31,689 nt of DNA from a virus, in IMG/VR virus record IMGVR_UViG_3300020205_000061, positions 1 through 31,689 of that record, one strand, 5' to 3'. The position numbers were made by a program, and so were the translations under genes. Position 1 is the stretch's first letter; each line of letters starts with the position of its first letter. Positions 2,483 to 12,494 of the stretch are shown here, in pieces. Under the pieces are notes generated by a model. That model made no database searches, was not told where the DNA came from, and was given only the letters and a program-made list of their open reading frames with translations.

Positions 2483-3184
2483 TTATAACTCCGAAAGTTC
2501 TGTGGAGCGTATGGATAGGTGTTGCACCTTCGCTGTGTCGATGGAATCGATCATTGCCTGCTTCATACGCTTTGGGTAAGGCTTTGCTAGTTGTTGCACT
2601 TGTTTACGCATATTATCATCTAATGGCATTAAATATCTATGTTTGCCTTTTGTATAAAATATTGTTGCATTTTTGTCTAAATGTTTTTTGACTGCTTCAA
2701 TGTTTTGTTTTATGCCTTTGCTGTGAATAGATTTAGGATGTGTTTTTTTACCATTAACAATAAAAGCCCCCATTGTATTGGCATTTTTTAATCCATCATA
2801 AATCCAATTTGTTGCCTGATATATGCCACCATGATGGTTTTGATCTGCATCTGAATATGAAACAATTAAACGCAGTTCAGGTGATTGTTTTTTTAAAAAT
2901 TTGATAGCAAAAGCAAGTATTTTACTAACATATGTTTCATGTCTTTTTAATGCAATTCTTACTAATTCACATCCTTCATCAGCATTTAATCCAAATGGTT
3001 TAAGCATATTATTGTTTGCACCACGACCAAATATCACAACCCCAATAAATTTATCATTTTCCCATGCACCAACTTTAACTAATTTACCAACTGGTATAGT
3101 TTTACTATAATGCCAATTTTCACACGCATATTTAGATGCTTCGTGACTTGCCCAGTCAATTTTAAGATTAACTTTGTCTTGCAT
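2483..3184 (-). CDS. mom: Mom-family DNA modification protein A
   Basis: This 233-aa protein matches the Mom family (phage Mu Mom, GNAT-derived fold, converts adenine in DNA to N6-methylcarbamoyl-adenine and so blocks restriction). Visible signatures are HY at residues 25-26 followed by a proline at 31, a GVVIFGRGANNN strand-loop (48-59), ELVRIAL (73-79), SYSDADQNHHGGIYQATN (109-126) with WIYDGL after it, and GKHRYLMPL further on. The ATG at 3184 is preceded by GGGAAAGAATTTG; a GTG at 3199 without Shine-Dalgarno would add five residues. It overlaps the ParB-like gene by 17 nt and is followed directly by terS, so it should be made with packaging functions. A second, divergent Mom-like protein is encoded at 4761-5414. 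The chemistry in this phage is inferred from the family. Confidence 0.85.
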   Translation of the reverse strand: MQDKVNLKIDWASHEASKYACENWHYSKTIPVGKLVKVGAWENDKFIGVVIFGRGANNNMLKPFGLNADEGCELVRIALKRHETYVSKILAFAIKFLKKQSPELRLIVSYSDADQNHHGGIYQATNWIYDGLKNANTMGAFIVNGKKTHPKSIHSKGIKQNIEAVKKHLDKNATIFYTKGKHRYLMPLDDNMRKQVQQLAKPYPKRMKQAMIDSIDTAKVQHLSIRSTELSEL

Positions 3185-3671
3185 CAAATTCTTTCCCACA
3201 ATGAGGACAACTAACCCATTTTGGGTCTAATTCATCTAATTTGCCCTGATCATCTTCAGTCGCTGCATCAAAATTTACACCATTTATAAATGCACTTAAT
3301 TCATCAGCATTGAATCCTATAACTTCAAGATTAAATCCATCTGTATCTAGTTGTGATATTTCTAAACTAAGCAATTCAGTGTCCCATCCTGAATTCAATG
3401 CCAATTTATTATCGGCAATTATGTAAGCCTTCTTTTGAGTTTCTGTCATATCTGAGCAGTCAAGCGTTGGAACTTTATCTAGTCCAAGTTTTCTTGCTGC
3501 CAATAATCGACCATGACCAGCTATTATTCCTACTCCATCTACCAAAATAGGATTTCTAAATCCAAATTCTTTTATTGAAGCTGCTAATTGTGCCACCTGG
3601 GCATCATCATGCGTTCGTGAATTATTTACATAAGGGATTAGCTTAGATACTTCTATTTCTTTGATTTGCAT
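3168..3671 (-). CDS. ParB/Srx-fold protein with C-terminal CxxC
   Basis: This 167-aa protein has an N-terminal ParB-like nuclease/CTPase-fold domain (about residues 1-120). The box motif is IIAGHGRLLAARKLGL around 49-64, then IADNKLALNSGWD and a GFNADELSAF segment that is typical of the ParB domain found fused to phage DNA methyltransferases. Here no methyltransferase follows: the protein ends with an acidic linker and a CPHCGKEF knuckle (C155, C158). Two cysteines alone would bind zinc only as a dimer or with a partner. The gene starts with ATG at 3671 and overlaps the Mom-like gene by 17 nt. ParB-fold genes are known neighbours of DNA-modification genes, so a role in targeting or regulating modification is likely but inferred. 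Partitioning is unlikely, since there is no ParA. Confidence 0.82.
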   Translation of the reverse strand: MQIKEIEVSKLIPYVNNSRTHDDAQVAQLAASIKEFGFRNPILVDGVGIIAGHGRLLAARKLGLDKVPTLDCSDMTETQKKAYIIADNKLALNSGWDTELLSLEISQLDTDGFNLEVIGFNADELSAFINGVNFDAATEDDQGKLDELDPKWVSCPHCGKEFDARQS

Positions 3672-4760: not shown

Positions 4761-5414
4761 TTAAAATAAAATTAATTGGGTTGCAACTTTGCCACCTGAG
4801 TTATATTTTTTTGAATCTCCTTTAGGGTATGGTTCACTTTTATACAAAAATTTAGATAAAAGAACCTTTTTATCGTTTTTAGTGCCATGAAAATAAATGT
4901 ACCTATGCTTTCTACTTCTTGGTTTGTAATAAAAATCATCTTTATATTTTTCTTTTAATTGTTCTAAATCTAATCCTTCACCAATATGTCTACTATGTTT
5001 ATGTTCCATGCCTTTAATAGTCCAATCAGTTCTAATTGCTGATAAACCTGTATATATAAAGTTTGTTGCTTGATATACATACCCTACATGGCCTTGCTCT
5101 GTGTCAGCGTAAGAAACAACTATTGTAGGTTTTGGCAATAATTTAATTGAATTGCTAACTAAAAATGAAGATTGGTTCTTTTCATTTTGCATTAAACATA
5201 AACGATTTAATTCCAAAACTTTCTCAGAATAATCTTTGCCACATATACCTATGCACAAATTTGGACTAGCTGGCATACCATAAGTAACAACCCCTATCAA
5301 ATCATTGTTTACAAAAAGACCAAAAGCATAACTTATTGATGGAATACGCTTTGCATAATGTTTTTGTATTAACCAGGAATAACAATCATCACTTTTAATA
5401 GGCAATACTTTCAT
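4761..5414 (-). CDS. mom: Mom-family DNA modification protein B
   Basis: This 217-aa protein has the same key blocks as the Mom-like protein at 2483-3184 but belongs to a different branch. HY is at 19-20 with P25, GVVTYGMPAS at 41-50, ELNRLCL at 68-74, SYADTEQGHVGYVYQATN at 101-118, then FIYTGL, an SRKHRYIYF block and SEPYPKGDSKKY near the C-terminus. Outside these blocks the two have little in common. The ATG at 5414 has AAGGGTAATT upstream. It follows the lambda P-like gene by 2 bp, so it would be expressed with replication rather than with packaging. The modification it makes and its substrate are inferred from the Mom family; an acetyltransferase-like activity on another substrate is the main alternative. 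Confidence 0.82.
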   Translation of the reverse strand: MKVLPIKSDDCYSWLIQKHYAKRIPSISYAFGLFVNNDLIGVVTYGMPASPNLCIGICGKDYSEKVLELNRLCLMQNEKNQSSFLVSNSIKLLPKPTIVVSYADTEQGHVGYVYQATNFIYTGLSAIRTDWTIKGMEHKHSRHIGEGLDLEQLKEKYKDDFYYKPRSRKHRYIYFHGTKNDKKVLLSKFLYKSEPYPKGDSKKYNSGGKVATQLILF

Positions 5415-5416
5415 AA

Positions 5417-5806
5417 TTACCCTTTATAAGTTTTTTTATTAATCATTTCACGCATAGTTCTGAATTGTTCCTTAACAAACTCTTTGTCTTGAGAAGAATA
5501 ACCAGAACTATATCCAATCTCAGAATGAGGTTTACTAGGGATTCGTTCACCAGTCATGCAAAGTTTCTTCACAGCTAAAGCACTAGGAATAAAGGTATCA
5601 TCCATTGAATAAATGGCTTGATCGAGTTTAGGTCTGTAGGTTAAATAAATACCTAATACTTCTTTCCAAGTATCTCGAACTATCTCAAGATCAACTCCTT
5701 CCCAATGTCTGATAAAAGTTGCACCATAGATAGCACCCATTCGAGCAAATAAGTAATCTAATCCTTGATCTGGATCACAAAAATCACTTTCCAAGTAGTC
5801 TGACAT
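5417..5806 (-). CDS. Replication protein P-like (putative helicase loader)
   Basis: This 129-aa protein has the layout of lambda P-type and related phage replication partners. An N-terminal LFARMGAIYGATFIRHW segment (about 19-35) is followed by a W-x3-L helix, then DDTFIPSALAVKKLCMTG (69-86), where related proteins have a WPPSLPEFRALC-like block. Proteins of this type recruit the host DnaB helicase to the initiator. The ATG at 5806 has a perfect AGGAGG eight bases upstream and lies inside the 3' end of the initiator gene (23-nt overlap), as with lambda O and P. The similarity is a pattern match rather than a strong family hit, so the helicase-loader role is an inference supported by position. 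Confidence 0.55.
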   Translation of the reverse strand: MSDYLESDFCDPDQGLDYLFARMGAIYGATFIRHWEGVDLEIVRDTWKEVLGIYLTYRPKLDQAIYSMDDTFIPSALAVKKLCMTGERIPSKPHSEIGYSSGYSSQDKEFVKEQFRTMREMINKKTYKG

Positions 5807-6512
5807 CTTTGTTGCCTCCTATGATTCCTCTGGTTAATCCTGACATGACTGTGCTATTTCTTTCCCCTATGGTTTTTTTCTCTTTAATCCACTCAGCTTT
5901 AAATCCTCTCCAACCATTTTGACAACATAGCATCATGACTTGCTCAAGAGTTAGATTAGCCTTTTGCCCTTCTTTTGCTAAACCATTGATTGCAGTTTGA
6001 GTAACTGGTGCTTTCAATCCTTTGCGTAACTTACAAAAATCTTTAAAGACTTCATCACTAACACCTTCAGGTGTAATAGTATTTATATTGGGTATTGGGT
6101 TAATGGGTATTGGGTATTGGGTATTGGGTAGCATACCGATTGCATTGCATTCGGATTGCGTTTGCAATGCGTTCGCATCAATTCCCTTATTCTTCCTAGT
6201 CCAACGAGCATTAGCACTTGCCCTAGCACTCTCTGATTTTGCATAAAGATGAGCCAATTCTTTATCACATCGAGTATGAATGTAACCTTTTTCAGTCAAT
6301 ACAAAGAAGTCAGTTAATACATTTTGTAGCGATTGTTGTTCGTCTGCATTGCGAACGCTATGCGAACGCATCAATTTCGCAATATCATTAGTTAAAGGTT
6401 GTTCATCCAAATAATAAGTATCAAGTAATTGTCTATAAATCCCATGTTCCAACAATGTTAAATGGCTTGTATCTTTACGATAGTCTCCAATATTATGCTG
6501 ATAGTAGTGCAT
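5784..6512 (-). CDS. DUF1376-type replication initiator (O-like)
   Basis: This 242-aa protein has an N-terminal DUF1376 winged-helix-like domain (residues 1-75: YYQHNIGDYRKDT, then LTLLEHGIYRQLLDTYY). A helical basic region with ASANARWTRKNKG follows, then a Pro/Asn/Ile-rich linker (LPNTQYPIPINPIPNINT). The C-terminal helical domain contains GWRGFKAEWI. DUF1376 proteins occupy the place of lambda O in many phages. The ATG at 6512 has GGAGAGTGAT in front and overlaps the Cro-like gene stop by none; a TTG at 6524 is less likely. The DNA of this gene carries two clusters of 11-bp repeats and a run of TATTGGG repeats, so the origin may lie inside the gene, as it does in lambda O. Confidence 0.78.
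   Translation of the reverse strand: MHYYQHNIGDYRKDTSHLTLLEHGIYRQLLDTYYLDEQPLTNDIAKLMRSHSVRNADEQQSLQNVLTDFFVLTEKGYIHTRCDKELAHLYAKSESARASANARWTRKNKGIDANALQTQSECNAIGMLPNTQYPIPINPIPNINTITPEGVSDEVFKDFCKLRKGLKAPVTQTAINGLAKEGQKANLTLEQVMMLCCQNGWRGFKAEWIKEKKTIGERNSTVMSGLTRGIIGGNKDVRLLGK
6086..6128. repeat. Tandem TATTGGG heptamers
   Basis: TATTGGG occurs five times (6086, 6093, 6108, 6115 and 6122), with one degenerate 8-bp unit, TTAATGGG, at 6100. It encodes the Pro/Asn-rich linker of the initiator on the other strand. The 7-bp period does not follow codons, which suggests slippage or DNA-level function. It directly abuts the 11-bp iteron cluster. Confidence 0.85.
6136..6179 (+). repeat. Iteron-like cluster 1: four tandem 11-mers
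   Basis: Four back-to-back 11-bp units start at 6136, 6147, 6158 and 6169: CCGATTGCATT, GCATTCGGATT, GCGTTTGCAAT and GCGTTCGCATC. They fit a consensus GCGTTYGCATT with one or two mismatches each. The period is not a multiple of three and the encoded residues are not repeated, so selection at the DNA level is likely. Candidate initiator-binding sites of the replication origin. Confidence 0.7.
6348..6369 (-). repeat. Iteron-like cluster 2: two 11-mers in opposite orientation
   Basis: Read on the minus strand from 6369, this holds GCGTTCGCATA and GCGTTCGCAAT in tandem, each matching the GCGTTYGCATT consensus of cluster 1 in 10 of 11 positions. The two clusters face each other across about 170 bp, all inside the initiator gene. 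This supports an origin with bidirectional binding sites. Confidence 0.65.
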
Positions 6513-6513
6513 A

Positions 6514-6714
6514 TCACTCTCCAAATAGGTCAGGTCTAAGCATCTCTTTTGTCAATCTACCCTGAGATAAATTGTTTAGTTTGCGTAAATGTTTAATAGG
6601 TATTTGTCCTCTCGCCATCCAGTTATAAATTGCAGTATTTCTAACACCTAAATGCTTTGATAGTTCATCTAAAGTGCCAAATTCTGCTTGTAACATATTC
6701 TTAATTTCGTCCAT
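6514..6714 (-). CDS. Cro/YdaS-like HTH regulator
   Basis: This 66-aa protein has a complete helix-turn-helix. TLDELSKHLGVRNTAIYNWM (about residues 14-33) is followed by RGQIPIKHLRKLNNL and ends LRPDLFGE, the usual ending of small Cro/YdaS-type repressors of phages. It is the first gene of the leftward operon. The ATG at 6714 has a perfect AAGGAGG six bases upstream. An inverted repeat at 6736-6755, just upstream of its own start, is the likely operator, so autorepression and control of the divergent early operon are expected. No CI-like partner is present. It is followed by the initiator gene, with 1 bp between stop and start. Confidence 0.85.
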   Translation of the reverse strand: MDEIKNMLQAEFGTLDELSKHLGVRNTAIYNWMARGQIPIKHLRKLNNLSQGRLTKEMLRPDLFGE

Positions 6715-6732
6715 AAATCCTCCTTAATTCGA

Positions 6733-6762
6733 ATCTTATCACGAAATTGTGATAAAATGCAA
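6733..6762 (-). promoter_or_regulatory. Candidate leftward promoter
   Basis: On the minus strand, TTGCAT (6762-6757) and TAAGAT (6738-6733) are separated by 18 bp, and the operator arms overlap this spacer and the -10. The predicted start leaves a leader of only about 12 nt before the Cro-like ATG. Match to consensus is moderate. Confidence 0.35.
6736..6755. promoter_or_regulatory. Operator-like inverted repeat
   Basis: TTATCAC (6736-6742) and GTGATAA (6749-6755) are perfect 7-bp arms around a 6-bp spacer, 22 bp upstream of the Cro-like start. A further half site, GTGATA (6802-6807), lies inside the spacer of the candidate rightward promoter. This is what a Cro-type dimer controlling both directions would need. 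Confidence 0.7.
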
Positions 6763-6794
6763 CAAAAATAAATAAATATATTTTAATAAAAGTG

Positions 6795-6823
6795 TTGACT
6801 TGTGATATTTTATGGTTTAAAGT
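6795..6823 (+). promoter_or_regulatory. Candidate rightward early promoter
   Basis: TTGACT (6795-6800) and TAAAGT (6818-6823) are separated by 17 bp, in an AT-rich stretch with no genes. The first rightward gene begins at 6871. The operator half site GTGATA lies in the spacer, so repression by the Cro-like protein is plausible. Confidence 0.55.
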
Positions 6824-6870
6824 GTATTCATGCAGTAAATTTTATTAAATGAAACGAAAGGGAAATGAAG

Positions 6871-7029
6871 ATGGACAAAAATACAATTATTACTTTGTTG
6901 CAAAAATACTATCCACAGGCTGTGGCTTACATTTGCGATGCTTATGATTCTGAATTAGAAGAAATAAACATTGCTTGTCTTGCTACTTTATTAGGTGGTG
7001 AATTAAATAAAATTAAAAACCCTGAGTAA
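6871..7029 (+). CDS. Small hypothetical early protein (52 aa)
   Basis: I read this frame directly: ATG at 6871, TAA at 7027-7029. The product starts MDKNTIITLLQKYYPQAVAY and ends NKIKNPE. It is acidic, helical, and has two cysteines. AAAGGGAAATGAAG stands before the ATG, with GGGA about 7 bases from it; an in-frame ATG two codons upstream has no room for a ribosome site. It is the first gene after the candidate rightward promoter. No family recognised. Confidence 0.65.
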   Translation: MDKNTIITLLQKYYPQAVAYICDAYDSELEEINIACLATLLGGELNKIKNPE

Positions 7030-7042
7030 AGGATAGACAACC

Positions 7043-7132
7043 ATGAAAGACTATATCTATGGAACTATTTTTACAGTTCTAATGAGCCTTACATTGGCTT
7101 TAATCTACATTTACAAAACAGGAGGTTTTTAA
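7043..7132 (+). CDS. Single-span membrane peptide (29 aa)
   Basis: This very short frame starts with ATG at 7043 and ends at TAA 7130-7132. The ending overlaps the next start codon by one base (TAATG). The peptide is MKDY followed by a hydrophobic span of about 18 residues and KTGGF. AAGGA lies about 10 bases before the start. Size and overlap fit a real phage micropeptide of the inner membrane, but the evidence is limited. Confidence 0.5.
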   Translation: MKDYIYGTIFTVLMSLTLALIYIYKTGGF

Positions 7133-7422
7133 TGAAGAACTTTGATTCTTGGTTATGCAATGATCCATCAATTGACGATGGACAAGAACTTATTGATGAT
7201 CGTGCTAACGAACTCATTAAGACTACCTATAGACCATCTATCTTGATTAATGATGCTATTTCTGAATTTACTTTTAAAGAAAATCAGCAAATGGCTGAGT
7301 TTGCAAGTGAAAACGATATGACTGGTTTAGGCAATTACATTTATCTAAAAGCCTACGACTTTGCAAATAAACTAGCCAATCAACAGGCTGAACATGAATT
7401 TTTTAATGGAGATTTAGGATGA
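7132..7422 (+). CDS. Hypothetical early protein (96 aa)
   Basis: This acidic, helix-rich 96-aa protein begins MKNFDSWLCNDPS and ends FFNGDLG. The start has AGGAGG seven bases upstream, one of the best ribosome sites in the operon. Its stop overlaps the annealing-protein start in an ATGA junction, so the two are coupled. I see no motif that gives a function; its fixed position before the annealing protein may indicate a recombination accessory role. Confidence 0.75.
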   Translation: MKNFDSWLCNDPSIDDGQELIDDRANELIKTTYRPSILINDAISEFTFKENQQMAEFASENDMTGLGNYIYLKAYDFANKLANQQAEHEFFNGDLG

Positions 7423-7967
7423 AAACTTTTAATGAATTAAGACTTATCAATGTAAATGAATTTACAGAACGCAAGGGACAATTAACATATTTAAGTTGGA
7501 CTTATGGTTTAGACATCCTCTTACAAAACGATTCTACAGCTACTTGGAAGTTCCTAGAGCCTGTTGTTTATAACGATACGATGATGGTTCGGACTGAGGT
7601 AACTGCCTTTGGCAAGACTTTAGAAATGCAATTACCTGTAATGGATAACAGAAATAACGCAGTTAAGTCACCAGACTCACGCAAAATTTCAGATTCGCAA
7701 ATGAGATGTTTGGCTAAGAATATAGCCTGTTTCGGTATCGGAATGTATGTTTATGCTGGCTCTGATCTTCCATCTGAAGCTATTGATGAAGAAACTCCTG
7801 ATCTGACTGATCTCTGCACTAACTGGGTAGACATGATAGGGGAGTGCCTAGATATAGATACCTTGAAAGGTGCATACGGACAAGCCTATAAAGAATTGAG
7901 TAAAGATAAGGTAGCAATAGATCGTATTTCAAAGGCAAAGGATAAAAGAAAGGCAGAACTAATATGA
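7419..7967 (+). CDS. DUF1071/Sak-type single-strand annealing protein
   Basis: This 182-aa protein matches the DUF1071 family of phage single-strand annealing proteins. The hallmark YLSWTYGLDILL lies at about residues 24-35, followed by ATWKF, a VRTEVTAFGKTLEMQLPVMD strand region (57-76), and SDSQMRCLAKNIACFGIGMY (91-110). Such proteins bind and anneal complementary single strands made by a partner 5'-3' exonuclease. That partner is encoded in the same operon at 9706-10323, together with an SSB-like protein. The C-terminal third (from about residue 125) is charged and variable, which is usual. It overlaps the genes on both sides by 4 nt. Confidence 0.85.
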   Translation: MKTFNELRLINVNEFTERKGQLTYLSWTYGLDILLQNDSTATWKFLEPVVYNDTMMVRTEVTAFGKTLEMQLPVMDNRNNAVKSPDSRKISDSQMRCLAKNIACFGIGMYVYAGSDLPSEAIDEETPDLTDLCTNWVDMIGECLDIDTLKGAYGQAYKELSKDKVAIDRISKAKDKRKAELI

Positions 7968-8155
7968 CATTTAATGAGCAAATAGACTCTTTATTAAATA
8001 AGCAAAAAGAGGTAGATTACATCTTGGTTACTGAAACTATTAAAGAATACCTAGTTACATGGCCATCAAATGTTGATTCGCAGCTCTGGAATCATCGCTT
8101 GGAATCCTTACTGAAAAGAATAGATGAAAAATTTGGGAAAGGAGATAACTCTTGA
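7964..8155 (+). CDS. Hypothetical early protein (63 aa)
   Basis: This 63-aa helical protein (MTFNEQIDSLLNKQ to KFGKGDNS) has an ATGA overlap with the annealing protein and a TTGA overlap with the next start. It has no cysteine, signal sequence or recognised motif. The tight packing supports its reality; function unknown. Confidence 0.7.
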   Translation: MTFNEQIDSLLNKQKEVDYILVTETIKEYLVTWPSNVDSQLWNHRLESLLKRIDEKFGKGDNS

Positions 8156-8610
8156 TTTCTAAATTGTTAATCTTGTTAATGTTTCCTTTGATTACAAATG
8201 CTCAAACATCTTTTGTTGCATCTGAAATAGACAACCCTACAAACAAGTGCCAAGTAATTGTGGCAGATTATCGAGTCGGCTCAGATATAAATTATTTAGG
8301 TAATTGCAGTTGGTCGAGTCTAAAAGGTATAGGTGCTTATGTAGAGAAATGGAATCATGGGAATCATGTTCGAGTTGTGCGAGGTAACTTTAAAAAAGGA
8401 CAATCTACAGACTGGTCAAAAGTTACTTATTTTAATTTATTAAAAAAGACTGTAGTAAGTTCTGAAGAAAACAGTTGGCTGACTCGTAATAGAACTGTAT
8501 ATCAGATTGATGATGTAATTGCAGATATGGTGCGATCTAAAGTAGATATAGACTTGAGTAAAGTTTCTACTTACTTAGTTATCGCTAATTTTATTGATTT
8601 ATATGAATAG
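8152..8610 (+). CDS. Exported hypothetical protein with TTG start (152 aa)
   Basis: The N-terminus MISKLLILLMFPLITNAQ is a typical Sec signal peptide with a likely cleavage after NA at residue 17, so the mature protein should be periplasmic. The mature part has two cysteines and is beta-rich, with repeated short aromatic strands (NCSWSS, KWNHGNHVRVVRG). TTG at 8152 is the best start: AAGGAGAT stands in front, TTGA overlaps the previous stop, and the first downstream ATG would remove half of the signal peptide. It is followed directly by a lipoprotein gene. An early-made periplasmic protein may act on the envelope or against superinfection, but that is only inference. Confidence 0.75.
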   Translation: MISKLLILLMFPLITNAQTSFVASEIDNPTNKCQVIVADYRVGSDINYLGNCSWSSLKGIGAYVEKWNHGNHVRVVRGNFKKGQSTDWSKVTYFNLLKKTVVSSEENSWLTRNRTVYQIDDVIADMVRSKVDIDLSKVSTYLVIANFIDLYE

Positions 8611-8618
8611 GGATTGTT

Positions 8619-8915
8619 ATGAAAAAATTAGTCTTGATTTTAACTTTTACACTTGCAGCTTGTTCTACTTCTCAATCAAAAAAGGATGTTGTATTTGCTC
8701 CACCAGTAGCAAATCAAATTATTAGTAATATTCCAAATGTTGCCTATCTTTATGAAGCTCAAGTATCTGAAATGAGTAGAATACAAGTTATAGAAGCTAC
8801 TAGAATGTGTGAAGATGCCAACCTACGAGCAATTACAGTAATGGCAAAACGTAGAATTACAGGCCAAACTTCTGATGTAATTGTTGATATTCAATGTTTA
8901 CCTAGATACAGATAA
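8619..8915 (+). CDS. Putative lipoprotein (98 aa)
   Basis: MKKLVLILTFTLAAC is a lipoprotein signal peptide with a lipobox LAAC, so cysteine 15 would be lipidated. The residue after it is S, not D, which favours outer-membrane sorting. The mature 84 residues hold two cysteines (C63, C93 by count) and no strong proline-rich spanin pattern. AGGGA precedes the ATG. It stands in the early operon between another exported protein and a sigma-like gene, not in the lysis cassette, so superinfection exclusion is a more natural guess than an o-spanin; neither is shown. Confidence 0.75.
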   Translation: MKKLVLILTFTLAACSTSQSKKDVVFAPPVANQIISNIPNVAYLYEAQVSEMSRIQVIEATRMCEDANLRAITVMAKRRITGQTSDVIVDIQCLPRYR

Positions 8916-9079
8916 TGAAAAATTCGAAAGAACACCGGCATGACAATTATTTTACTCAAGAAGAAGTTGCTTACATCTTGGAAATACCAAGGTTTAAAGT
9001 TGAGCAAATTGAACGAAAAGCATTAGAAAAAGTAACTCGCAGAATTAATCGTAAATATAAAAAGGAAGATTTGTTATGA
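8915..9079 (+). CDS. Sigma-70 region 4-like mini-protein (54 aa)
   Basis: I read this frame directly: ATG at 8915 in a TAATG overlap with the lipoprotein stop, and TGA at 9077-9079 in an ATGA overlap with the next gene. Residues 13-41 (FTQEEVAYILEIPRFKVEQI, then ERKALEKVT) match the form of sigma-70 region 4.2, where a -35-binding helix-turn-helix ends in VRQIEAKALRKL. The remaining residues are strongly basic. It lacks regions 2 and 3, so it cannot be a complete sigma factor. It could bind the beta flap or -35 DNA and redirect host RNA polymerase, or be a plain HTH regulator. Confidence 0.7.
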   Translation: MKNSKEHRHDNYFTQEEVAYILEIPRFKVEQIERKALEKVTRRINRKYKKEDLL

Positions 9080-9273
9080 CTAAAGGAGTCTTTTTTGTAA
9101 TAACAATGTGGATTGTATTCTGTGGCTTCATTATTTATTTGACTGAAGTTAGTCGAAAAGAGGAAGTTTTTAAGTTTAACTGCAACAACCTGATTGGTGG
9201 TTGGCATCCAGACATCCCAAAGAAGTTTGCTGAATTATGTGCTGAAGCTAAAAAAGAAAGGAACGACAGATGA
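9076..9273 (+). CDS. Small membrane-anchored protein (65 aa)
   Basis: This protein has a single N-terminal membrane span (about residues 5-22, VFFVITMWIVFCGFIIYL) followed by a charged soluble tail with two cysteines and an ELCAEAKKERNDR end. It has 4-nt overlaps with the sigma-like gene upstream and the next gene downstream. No family recognised. Confidence 0.7.
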   Translation: MTKGVFFVITMWIVFCGFIIYLTEVSRKEEVFKFNCNNLIGGWHPDIPKKFAELCAEAKKERNDR

Positions 9274-9473
9274 AACCATTTGCATACATATCAGAACATG
9301 GTGTTTTATTTAAAGAATTACCACCTAGTCCTTGGTTTAAATTAACACCGTTATATAGAATGCGTGAATTAACTTATGAGGAAATATCAGATATTCGTGA
9401 TAAACATTTAACACCAAAAGAATGTGATATTTATACATTTGCTAGAGCCATCTTAAAAGCAGCGAGTGAATAA
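9270..9473 (+). CDS. Conserved phage hypothetical protein (67 aa), paralogue 1
   Basis: This 67-aa protein starts with a short beta segment (FAYISEHGVLFKEL) that includes a PLYRM motif. It then has the block ELTYEEISDIRDKHL and ends with YTFARAILKAASE. An LT-x-EEI block followed by FARAI is common in small phage proteins of unknown role. The last 37 residues align with the end of the next protein. ATG at 9270 has AAGGA seven bases upstream. Confidence 0.75.
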   Translation: MKPFAYISEHGVLFKELPPSPWFKLTPLYRMRELTYEEISDIRDKHLTPKECDIYTFARAILKAASE

Positions 9474-9709
9474 TGACTGAATCCAGAGCATATATAAACG
9501 AAATAGAAAATGAACAAACAATTATTATGAATCCTAATATATTGCCTACTCAAGAAGAATGGCAATTAGTTTGTACGATGGTTAAACAACATGAACTAAC
9601 CGATGAGGAAATAAAAGAAGTCTACGGAGAACATTTTGATGTGAAGAATTGTGACTGGTTGCATCTTGAATGTATTAGAGCCATATTAAAAAAAGCGAGA
9701 GAGAAATGA
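9473..9709 (+). CDS. Conserved phage hypothetical protein (78 aa), paralogue 2
   Basis: The C-terminal half (ELTDEEIKEVYGEHF, then CIRAILKKAREK) matches the same block of the preceding protein, so the two look like a diverged tandem duplication. The N-terminal half is different and acidic. The start overlaps the upstream stop (TAATG), and the end overlaps the exonuclease by 4 nt. An internal ATG at codon 19 lacks a ribosome site. Confidence 0.72.
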   Translation: MTESRAYINEIENEQTIIMNPNILPTQEEWQLVCTMVKQHELTDEEIKEVYGEHFDVKNCDWLHLECIRAILKKAREK

Positions 9710-10323
9710 TATATAAAGAAATAGAACAGGGAACTGATGCTTGGTTGCAGATTAGAAAAGGTAAGGTAACTGCTAGTCGTGTAGCAGATGTAATGGCAAA
9801 AACAAAGACTGGTGTTTCAGCATCAAAAGGCAATTATCTAATTGAACTAGCCTTACAAAGGGTTACAGGGGTTATAGAAGTCTCTTATACCAATGATGCT
9901 ATGCAATGGGGTAAGGATAACGAACAGACTGCTAGAACAGCGTTTGAGGTTGCTCACCAAGTCTTTGTTGATCAAGTAGCATTTGTCGATCATCCTACGA
10001 TTAAAGACTTTGGTTGCAGTCCTGATGGCATTATTGGTGATTCTTTGCTCGAACTCAAGTGTCCGTATCAATCAGCAGTCCATTGGTCATATTTTAAAGA
10101 TGGTTGCCCATCTAAATACTATACGCAAATCCAAGCCCAAATGAGTTGCACAGGTGCTAAGTCAGTCTGGTTTGTATCATTCGACCCTCGTATGCCAGCT
10201 CAATCACAGTTATATATTGAAGAAGTTTTAAGAGAAGAAGAATTTATTAAGAAGATGGAAGAAGAAGTTTTGAAGTTTTTGAATGAAGTAGAAGTAGAAG
10301 CAAATCTAATGAAAGGTGAATGA
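9706..10323 (+). CDS. YqaJ/lambda-type exonuclease
   Basis: This 205-aa protein matches the YqaJ viral recombinase family, a PD-(D/E)XK nuclease that digests one strand 5' to 3' from double-strand ends (lambda Exo type). The N-terminal QGTDAWLQIRKGKVTASR block (8-25) is diagnostic. The catalytic core shows E73, the SPDG loop with D107, and E116-L-K118. In this family it works with an annealing protein, here the DUF1071 protein at 7419-7967. The C-terminus ends in a long acidic helix with many Glu. It overlaps its neighbour upstream by 4 nt; the next ATG starts 2 nt after its stop. Confidence 0.88.
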   Translation: MIYKEIEQGTDAWLQIRKGKVTASRVADVMAKTKTGVSASKGNYLIELALQRVTGVIEVSYTNDAMQWGKDNEQTARTAFEVAHQVFVDQVAFVDHPTIKDFGCSPDGIIGDSLLELKCPYQSAVHWSYFKDGCPSKYYTQIQAQMSCTGAKSVWFVSFDPRMPAQSQLYIEEVLREEEFIKKMEEEVLKFLNEVEVEANLMKGE

Positions 10324-10324
10324 A

Positions 10325-10573
10325 ATGGCTATTAAATATTACATCAAGGCAGCAGTATCCGAGTATCAAGATAAAGATGGTAAGGCAAAAAAGAAGTATC
10401 AAAGCATAGGAATAATCTTAGAAACTAAGAATGGCCTCATGCTAAAGCTAGAGACTATCCCATTATTTAGTTTAAAAGATGGTTGCTTGATTGCTTATTT
10501 GAACGATCCTGAGCCTGTTAAAGATGCCTTTCCTAAGACTTTAGCAGACATGCCCGATGACGTACCCTTTTAG
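10325..10573 (+). CDS. SSB-like protein with acidic DDVPF tail (82 aa)
   Basis: This short, beta-rich protein (IKYYIKAAVSEY, then KKYQSIGIILETKNGLMLKL) ends DMPDDVPF, which closely imitates the C-terminal tail of bacterial SSB that docks recombination and repair proteins. It lies directly after the exonuclease, completing an SSAP, exonuclease and SSB set. The ATG at 10325 has AAAGGTG upstream; a GTG at 10316 would add three residues and overlap the exonuclease. The OB-fold assignment is an inference from strand pattern and tail, not from a family hit. Confidence 0.65.
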   Translation: MAIKYYIKAAVSEYQDKDGKAKKKYQSIGIILETKNGLMLKLETIPLFSLKDGCLIAYLNDPEPVKDAFPKTLADMPDDVPF

Positions 10574-10582
10574 GAGAACATA

Positions 10583-10771
10583 ATGAGCCAATACGAATTG
10601 ATTGTTATTGCACTTAGTAAGTGGATTAGCCCTCTTGATGCGTTGCACAAAGCTGGAACGATGAAACTATCGACCAGAGTTGGAGAACTTCGAGCCAAAG
10701 GTTACATTATTGAAGATCGATGGCATGAAAGTCGCAAGTTTAAAATGTATAGATTGGTAAAAAAACCATGA
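10583..10771 (+). CDS. Small HTH protein (HTH_39-like, 62 aa)
   Basis: This 62-aa protein has the segment SPLDALHKAGTMKLSTRVGE (16-35) followed by LRAKGY and a beta hairpin ending MYRLVKKP. This is the winged-helix pattern of the HTH_39 family, frequent at the end of phage early operons. AGGAGA stands before the ATG. It overlaps the last early gene by 4 nt. It may be a DNA-binding regulator; the target is unknown. Confidence 0.8.
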   Translation: MSQYELIVIALSKWISPLDALHKAGTMKLSTRVGELRAKGYIIEDRWHESRKFKMYRLVKKP

Positions 10772-10923
10772 CACCATACACAACTAAGACCGGTGTTCAA
10801 ATAGGGATTAATTGCCAACCTAGAGCATATTTTGAAAATGACCGAGATATGCTTAATCTCCAAGAAGCACTCCTTAAAAAAGAGGTTTCTTGGTGGATGT
10901 TATTTAAAAATTGGTTTTGGTAA
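10768..10923 (+). CDS. Small conserved phage protein (51 aa), end of early operon
   Basis: I read this frame directly: ATG at 10768 in an ATGA overlap with the HTH gene, stop TAA at 10921-10923. The N-terminus MTPYTTKTGVQIGINCQPR and the following DMLNLQEALLKK helix resemble small proteins found in many podovirus-like genomes. The C-terminal SWWMLFKNWFW is very Trp-rich and may touch a membrane. The stop abuts the stop of the endolysin gene on the other strand. Confidence 0.68.
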   Translation: MTPYTTKTGVQIGINCQPRAYFENDRDMLNLQEALLKKEVSWWMLFKNWFW

Positions 10924-12141: not shown

Positions 12142-12494
12142 TTCTTTGCTCTTTTATGTTTAATCTCGTCTGCTACTTCACCAATATCCATGTGTTCACG
12201 CTTACTCATATAATTAGATACCCAATTAATGACAGCTACACTACATAAACCAAGCACCCATGCTAATCCAATTAACACATCTAACTTTTCAGGATTAATA
12301 CCTAGTTTTTCAGCAGCTAGTCCTGTAAACGCAAAGCCAGCCATTGCAGAAATACCACCTGCAATAAAAACAGATGCAACCTTACCTTTTTCTTGTAATT
12401 TTTCAGGTGTCCAGAACATTGCTAGACTTAATCCACCAAATAATCCACCTAGAGCTGGTGCTAGTTTCTCAATAAGAAATCCATCTGGCATCAT
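12138..12494 (-). CDS. Putative holin (118 aa, three spans)
   Basis: It has three predicted spans: LAPALGGLFGGLSLAMFW (about 11-28), a Gly/Ala-rich span (40-62) and LDVLIGLAWVLGLCSVAVIN (71-90). A charged cytoplasmic tail (EVADEIKHKRAKK) follows. Three spans and a basic C-terminus resemble class I holins. The start has two consecutive ATGs; the first overlaps the upstream 48-aa gene by 4 nt. Several holin-like genes in series make the exact role of each uncertain. Confidence 0.7.
   Translation of the reverse strand: MMPDGFLIEKLAPALGGLFGGLSLAMFWTPEKLQEKGKVASVFIAGGISAMAGFAFTGLAAEKLGINPEKLDVLIGLAWVLGLCSVAVINWVSNYMSKREHMDIGEVADEIKHKRAKK

Follow-up and report, generated by a model that had tools for sequence, protein, structure and literature searches.

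A putative autorepressing Cro/YdaS-type regulator and a conserved leader behind a predicted promoter in the divergent control region of a virus genome

What does a Cro-type regulator control in a phage in which no CI partner is found? The question is raised by positions 6715-6870 of virus record IMGVR_UViG_3300020205_000061, which was analyzed over its whole length of 31,689 nucleotides (the window). The record carries an exact terminal repeat of 99 bases, and a 728-codon open frame, the portal gene by position, reads across its ends; thus, the map is circularly complete at about 31,590 bp. The interval is the sole divergent gap separating rightward from leftward genes. Rightward are the main frames of 6865-10923, a block of 14 frames (frame list, Pfam and PHROG) made up of small unknown genes together with those for a Sak annealing protein (7419-7967) and a RecE-like exonuclease (9706-10323). 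The remaining frames run leftward and include the regulator, replication, RusA, terminase, DNA-ejection and endolysin genes. Besides the regulator, two small HTH proteins are encoded, both on the rightward strand: a 54-aa sigma70 region 4-like protein (8915-9079; PF04545, 5.6e-6, above the cut-off) and a 62-aa winged-helix HTH_39 protein (10583-10771; PF14090, 1.3e-4, above the cut-off, and marginally below it at 20.6 bits in the genome search). The sigma70 region 4-like protein could act on phage promoters.

The regulator, a putative DNA-binding protein of 66 aa, is encoded leftward at 6514-6714. It matches the YdaS family (PF15943) at 8.3e-12 and 45.2 bits, above the curated cut-off of 30, and the profile of Xfaso 1 Cro at 1.2e-10. 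Its structure model (pLDDT 83, pTM 0.60) has its best match in PDB 3bd1, which is Xfaso 1 Cro (Z 11.2, 1.5 A, 64 residues aligned). The Cro-like nature proposed by an earlier sequence-only reading is therefore in agreement with the sequence profile and with the modeled Cro-like HTH fold, features of a small HTH protein shared with Xfaso 1 Cro and with the Cro of the temperate phage P22 (1rzs). Xfaso 1 Cro comes from a Xylella prophage element, whereas no CI partner was found in the window phage. Directly downstream of the regulator lies a leftward gene for a DUF1376 primosome/replication-initiator-like protein (5784-6524; PF07120, 9.1e-30; PHROG primosomal and O-like families). The "toxin" in the Pfam name of the YdaS family is contested in print (PMC5917428).

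The 150-bp gap appears to hold two sigma70 promoters, both predicted, as if the two early promoters of lambda had been set back to back. The rightward candidate was found by a promoter scan and consists of a -35 TTGACT (6795-6800) and a -10 TAAAGT (6818-6823), which jointly score 9/12 over a 17-bp spacer and give a predicted +1 at 6830. The leftward candidate was recognized by eye and is absent from the scanner's output; on the minus strand it combines a -35 TTGCAT (6757-6762, 4/6) and an extended -10 TGA-TAAGAT (6733-6738) over an 18-bp spacer, scores 8/12 plus TG, and has similar elements in relatives. Promoter-like matches in 6500-7200 number three against a shuffle mean of 3.9, and are thus not above shuffles.

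Between these promoters the sequence-only reading had placed one strong operator, and a perfect 7-6-7 dyad, TTATCACGAAATTGTGATAA, was found at 6736-6755, 21 bp from the ATG at 6714, as the proposed operator of the regulator. The perfect form TTATCAC-N6-GTGATAA proved unique in the whole record. When up to three mismatches were allowed, the genome gave three matches against 2.42 expected, and the other two sites, with two mismatches each, were rejected as operators at chance level. Among 2000 dinucleotide shuffles of 6715-6864, a perfect 7+7 dyad with a spacer of 0-10 also arises in 527, and one with at least two G/C per arm in 78, so the dyad alone is only moderately unusual. Its placement in a promoter and its recurrence strengthen its case. 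The dyad takes up the leftward promoter's spacer and extends over three bases of its -10, which makes autorepression the best reading. Among the 16 distinct protein/upstream versions compared in the EFGTLD[EA]L clade (window included), eight have a dyad with 6 or 7 of 7 arm positions matched at the same place, with the centre 31 bp before the gene in the seven for which position was measured; the other eight are without a clear dyad at that place, and L096 has its best dyad elsewhere. In L018, whose regulator is 74% identical, TCAC/GTGA is replaced by ACAC/GTGT in both arms and symmetry is kept. Distant relatives often carry another inverted repeat between the promoters, of the TTAGGGA..TCCCTAAT type, about 56-86 bp before cro; it was seen in L040, L055, L023 and L031 and is absent from the window's clade. 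For distant clusters, dyads in the neighbourhood of the cro promoter spacer were rejected as support, because, by a rough estimate, DNA this AT-rich often has a loose dyad there. A perfect 6+6 dyad does lie within the cro promoter spacer of L055.

The strongest support for the operator comes from outside the family, from MW202867 (Caudoviricetes sp. ct3Oc712, Manatee Spring), whose terminase is 77% identical and the closest among the phages listed. In MW202867, a cro gene of the P22_Cro Pfam family is followed by repA and diverges from recombination-type AAA and exonuclease genes; no CI or integrase is annotated, and integrase and HTH_3 searches were empty. Its cro promoter (TTGCAA at 12309-12314, 18 bp, TAAGAT at 12333-12338) has a -10 and spacing identical to those of the window's leftward promoter, and its dyad, ACCGGA-TT-TCCGGT, is centred between spacer bases 11 and 12, as in the window (hand count). 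The annotated cro start at 12337 overlaps the -10; a later ATG stands one residue ahead of the Pfam match. The two systems differ in the Pfam family of Cro and in the letters of the dyad, and the 12-base core of the leader described below is absent from MW202867. An autoregulatory operator predicts just such a shared layout in which both the protein and the letters have changed.

The best explanation overall, with a probability of about 0.7, is that the regulator is an autorepressing damper of the Cro/YdaS type, acting at a single dyad between two divergent promoters. The leftward promoter would drive the regulator, the replication protein and the long leftward block, and the rightward promoter would drive the recombination and small-gene block. 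A dimer of the 66-aa protein may bind the dyad in its own promoter's spacer and block RNA polymerase there; once accumulated, it would limit expression of its own gene and of the replication operon, with a weak effect at most on the rightward promoter. We infer this binding, dimer formation, repression and timing from sequence features. Since a CI-type opponent was not found, the arrangement would be a one-way damper rather than a switch. Control of late genes, which the sequence-only reading had added to the timing of early ones, found no support, with no second operator above chance.

Such a design is mostly ordinary, as a solitary Cro-type regulator is of a kind already known. The YdaS proteins of Rac and CP-933P belong to the same Pfam family (PF15943). 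Rac has the order ydaS-ydaT-ydaU, in which YdaU is a DUF1376 protein, and this resembles the regulator-DUF1376 order of the window, although in the window, unlike in Rac and CP-933P, the DUF1376 gene follows the regulator directly. In Rac and CP-933P the position opposite YdaS is occupied by a CI-type repressor (RacR or PaaR2), whereas in the window it is occupied by the early gene block. The CP-933P YdaS is described as binding both promoters of its intergenic region (PMC8630535). A Cro with a single operator is described for PY54, and in this PY54 is like the window with its one candidate operator; unlike the window, it keeps CI, and negative autoregulation is left open there (PMC4488713).

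The absence of CI and integrase claimed by the sequence-only reading was borne out by zero matches in the window genome, although two more small HTH proteins are encoded there. The window has neither the divergent CI-type repressor nor the several shared operators of a lambda-type bistable CI/Cro switch, nor the integrase of a temperate integrating phage. The gene divergent from the regulator encodes a 54-aa protein without a repressor match in Pfam or PHROG, and S24 and HTH_3 searches of the window gave no match. A family set of 35 records was also searched, consisting of the window and 34 relatives picked from 76 (lengths of 8.7 to 47 kb, with many fragments among them). Neither integrase (PF00589) nor the S24 repressor was detected in any of these 35, fragments included, and it looks as though CI is absent lineage-wide rather than freshly lost. 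HTH_3, with a sensitivity too low to detect the window's own Cro, was found in 7 of the 35; six matches are the Cro gene itself by hand comparison of coordinates, and the seventh is a 59-aa HTH in G009 about 6.5 kb from Cro. Among 15 further records (13 leader records, P19250A and MW202867), none has integrase, and two have HTH_3 matches, both under the cut-off: that in G047 is Cro itself by coordinates, and that in G046 covers 21 residues of a 112-codon frame located some 6 kb away from Cro.

These searches bear on two readings that invoke lysogeny. That the phage is a recent virulent derivative of a temperate one, having lost CI and integrase, is decidedly improbable. The lambda-like gene order is borne out and would suit such a loss, as would the sole relative found in bacterial genomes, a Paraglaciecola MAG (L128), in which, at L128:5260-6075, a YdaS-family gene is divergent from a CI-like HTH gene, with a replication-type gene and DnaB also present. 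The L128 layout is a temperate arrangement, and the window has the recombination block on the CI side. Against a recent loss stand the absence of integrase and S24 from all 35 family records and the HTH_3 matches, which are Cro itself but for the one in G009, as well as the distribution of relatives: 1 among 25 stretches from the bacterial genome collection vs. 88 among 89 from viral contigs, both counts being lower bounds because the regulator profile scans relied on one peptide pattern. The temperate ancestor suggested by the sequence-only reading therefore holds in a deep sense only, and not as a fresh loss. The CI-like protein of L128 has a strong HTH_3 match and none to S24, which makes HTH_3 the better CI probe of the two. 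Hidden lysogeny, through a CI missed by the searches or as a plasmid-like prophage, is highly improbable. The window encodes a ParB_N protein (3168-3671) and has several rightward genes without a family, among them one (9473-9709) with a very weak excisionase match (E 0.086); however, the ParB_N gene adjoins a Mom-like gene, which suggests DNA modification, a ParA-type ATPase was found in 0 of 16 records, and a PHROG scan of all 14 rightward frames gave no CI-like match. Serine resolvase (PF00239) was likewise found in none of 16 records, the window included.

Other readings retain the regulator or the dyad and change its target or its ligand. The protein may chiefly repress the rightward early promoter in the manner of lambda Cro, through its own operator and a weak half site, TTGTGATA (6800-6807, plus strand), located in the rightward spacer, with GTG following the -35 in many relatives as well. 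This is unlikely, as the site is a half site only, and its five copies in the window (2.28 expected) are barely above chance, with at least five in 7 of 100 shuffles; moreover, L002, whose protein is 98% identical, no longer has it, and the same GTG is found alongside very different regulators. A working rightward operator at this half site is thus not supported. It is quite unlikely that the dyad serves another factor, either one of the two further small HTH proteins or a host regulator, even though symmetric AT-rich sites fit many dimeric regulators: the dyad lies in the regulator's own promoter, MW202867 offers a parallel, and HTH_39 is present in just 5 of the 32 searched records. An autorepressing damper of the Cro type, kept across a wide phage lineage with no lysogeny repressor detected, would favour a function for Cro in purely lytic growth.

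The interval contains a further element that the sequence-only reading missed, a conserved leader, ATGCAGTAAATTTTATTAA (6830-6848, plus strand), whose first base is the predicted rightward +1. In the window it has a single match at up to three mismatches. The exact 19-mer occurs in 52 viral-contig stretches, and 45 distinct contexts were obtained from all collected loci and the window. A sigma70-like promoter precedes the leader in 43 of these, with the -10 ending 5 nt (6 contexts), 6 nt (22) or 7 nt (15) before it, while about 18% of base-shuffled upstreams give a -10 at 5-7 nt; the two contexts without a promoter, L080 and L123, look like chance sites. Grouping at 70% ungapped identity divides the 43 contexts into 19 groups by upstream sequence and 31 by downstream sequence. 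A looser scan gave 102 stretches, and many of the 80 listed resemble coding sequence without a promoter.

A separate set of 77 loci was gathered through the regulator and not through the leader motif. The leader core lies 6-7 nt after the -10 in 48 of these loci and in 12 of 17 regulator clusters, and is absent from the other five (L019, L023, L031, L060 and L062). Leader positions 10-16, which were unused for selection, are 71-90% conserved in this set, and conservation falls to 47 and 55% at positions 17 and 19; conservation in the flanks, which is lowered by the lack of gap alignment, is 36-78% over the 24 bases upstream of the -10 and 37-75% downstream of the leader. Of the 77 loci, 30 have a best match of at least 16/19, a level that no base shuffle out of 1540 reached. 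Across 23 longer records, the exact 12-base core is present in 14, once each in 13 of them, and the reversed control in none. The leader also occurs where the upstream gene is co-directional and no divergent regulator is present (L081, L087, L089, L110 and L120), and twice in one genome (L081).

Several identities of the leader were rejected. An RNA structure was ruled out by the lack of any Rfam match at E<=1 for 6500-7200 and by a fold z of +1.48, and an obligatory two-codon frame (ATG CAG TAA) by L003, L054 and L063, which have no ATG there. The leader is not the regulator's operator, being constant while recognition helices and dyads differ, nor the target of the HTH_39 protein, given the 5 of 32 records above. 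A recombination joint for the exchange of early gene cassettes would suit a phage that encodes a Sak protein, but the fixed distance from leader to -10 speaks against it. We tentatively regard the leader, at slightly less than even odds, as an undescribed promoter-attached element common to many phages, almost unchanged in its letters where the promoter, the regulator and the genes downstream all vary. It would work at the level of early RNA synthesis (start and escape) or else give early mRNAs a shared 5' end that decides their fate. No convincing BLAST match to the leader was found in named phages, and no relevant paper was found for its sequence strings. If tied to the start site in many diverged promoters, the leader would represent a novel kind of early-transcript signature, one by which such promoters could be located in metagenomes; it is a better lead than the operator, matters more than the damper, and is the part worth following.

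In Methylophilaceae phage P19250A (L078:5168-5458), a VRR-NUC nuclease gene occupies the place of Cro, with a resembling promoter by eye. The stretch after that promoter also resembles the leader by eye, with no match at up to three mismatches and without the 12-base core. Two Mom-like DNA modification proteins are encoded in the one small window phage, at 2483-3199 (the gene adjoined by that for ParB_N) and at 4761-5414 (phrog_1384, 3.7e-60 and 3.3e-59). TATTGGG repeats at 6086-6125, within the DUF1376 gene, may mark a replication origin, and they are placed like the origin repeats of lambda, which sit in gene O.
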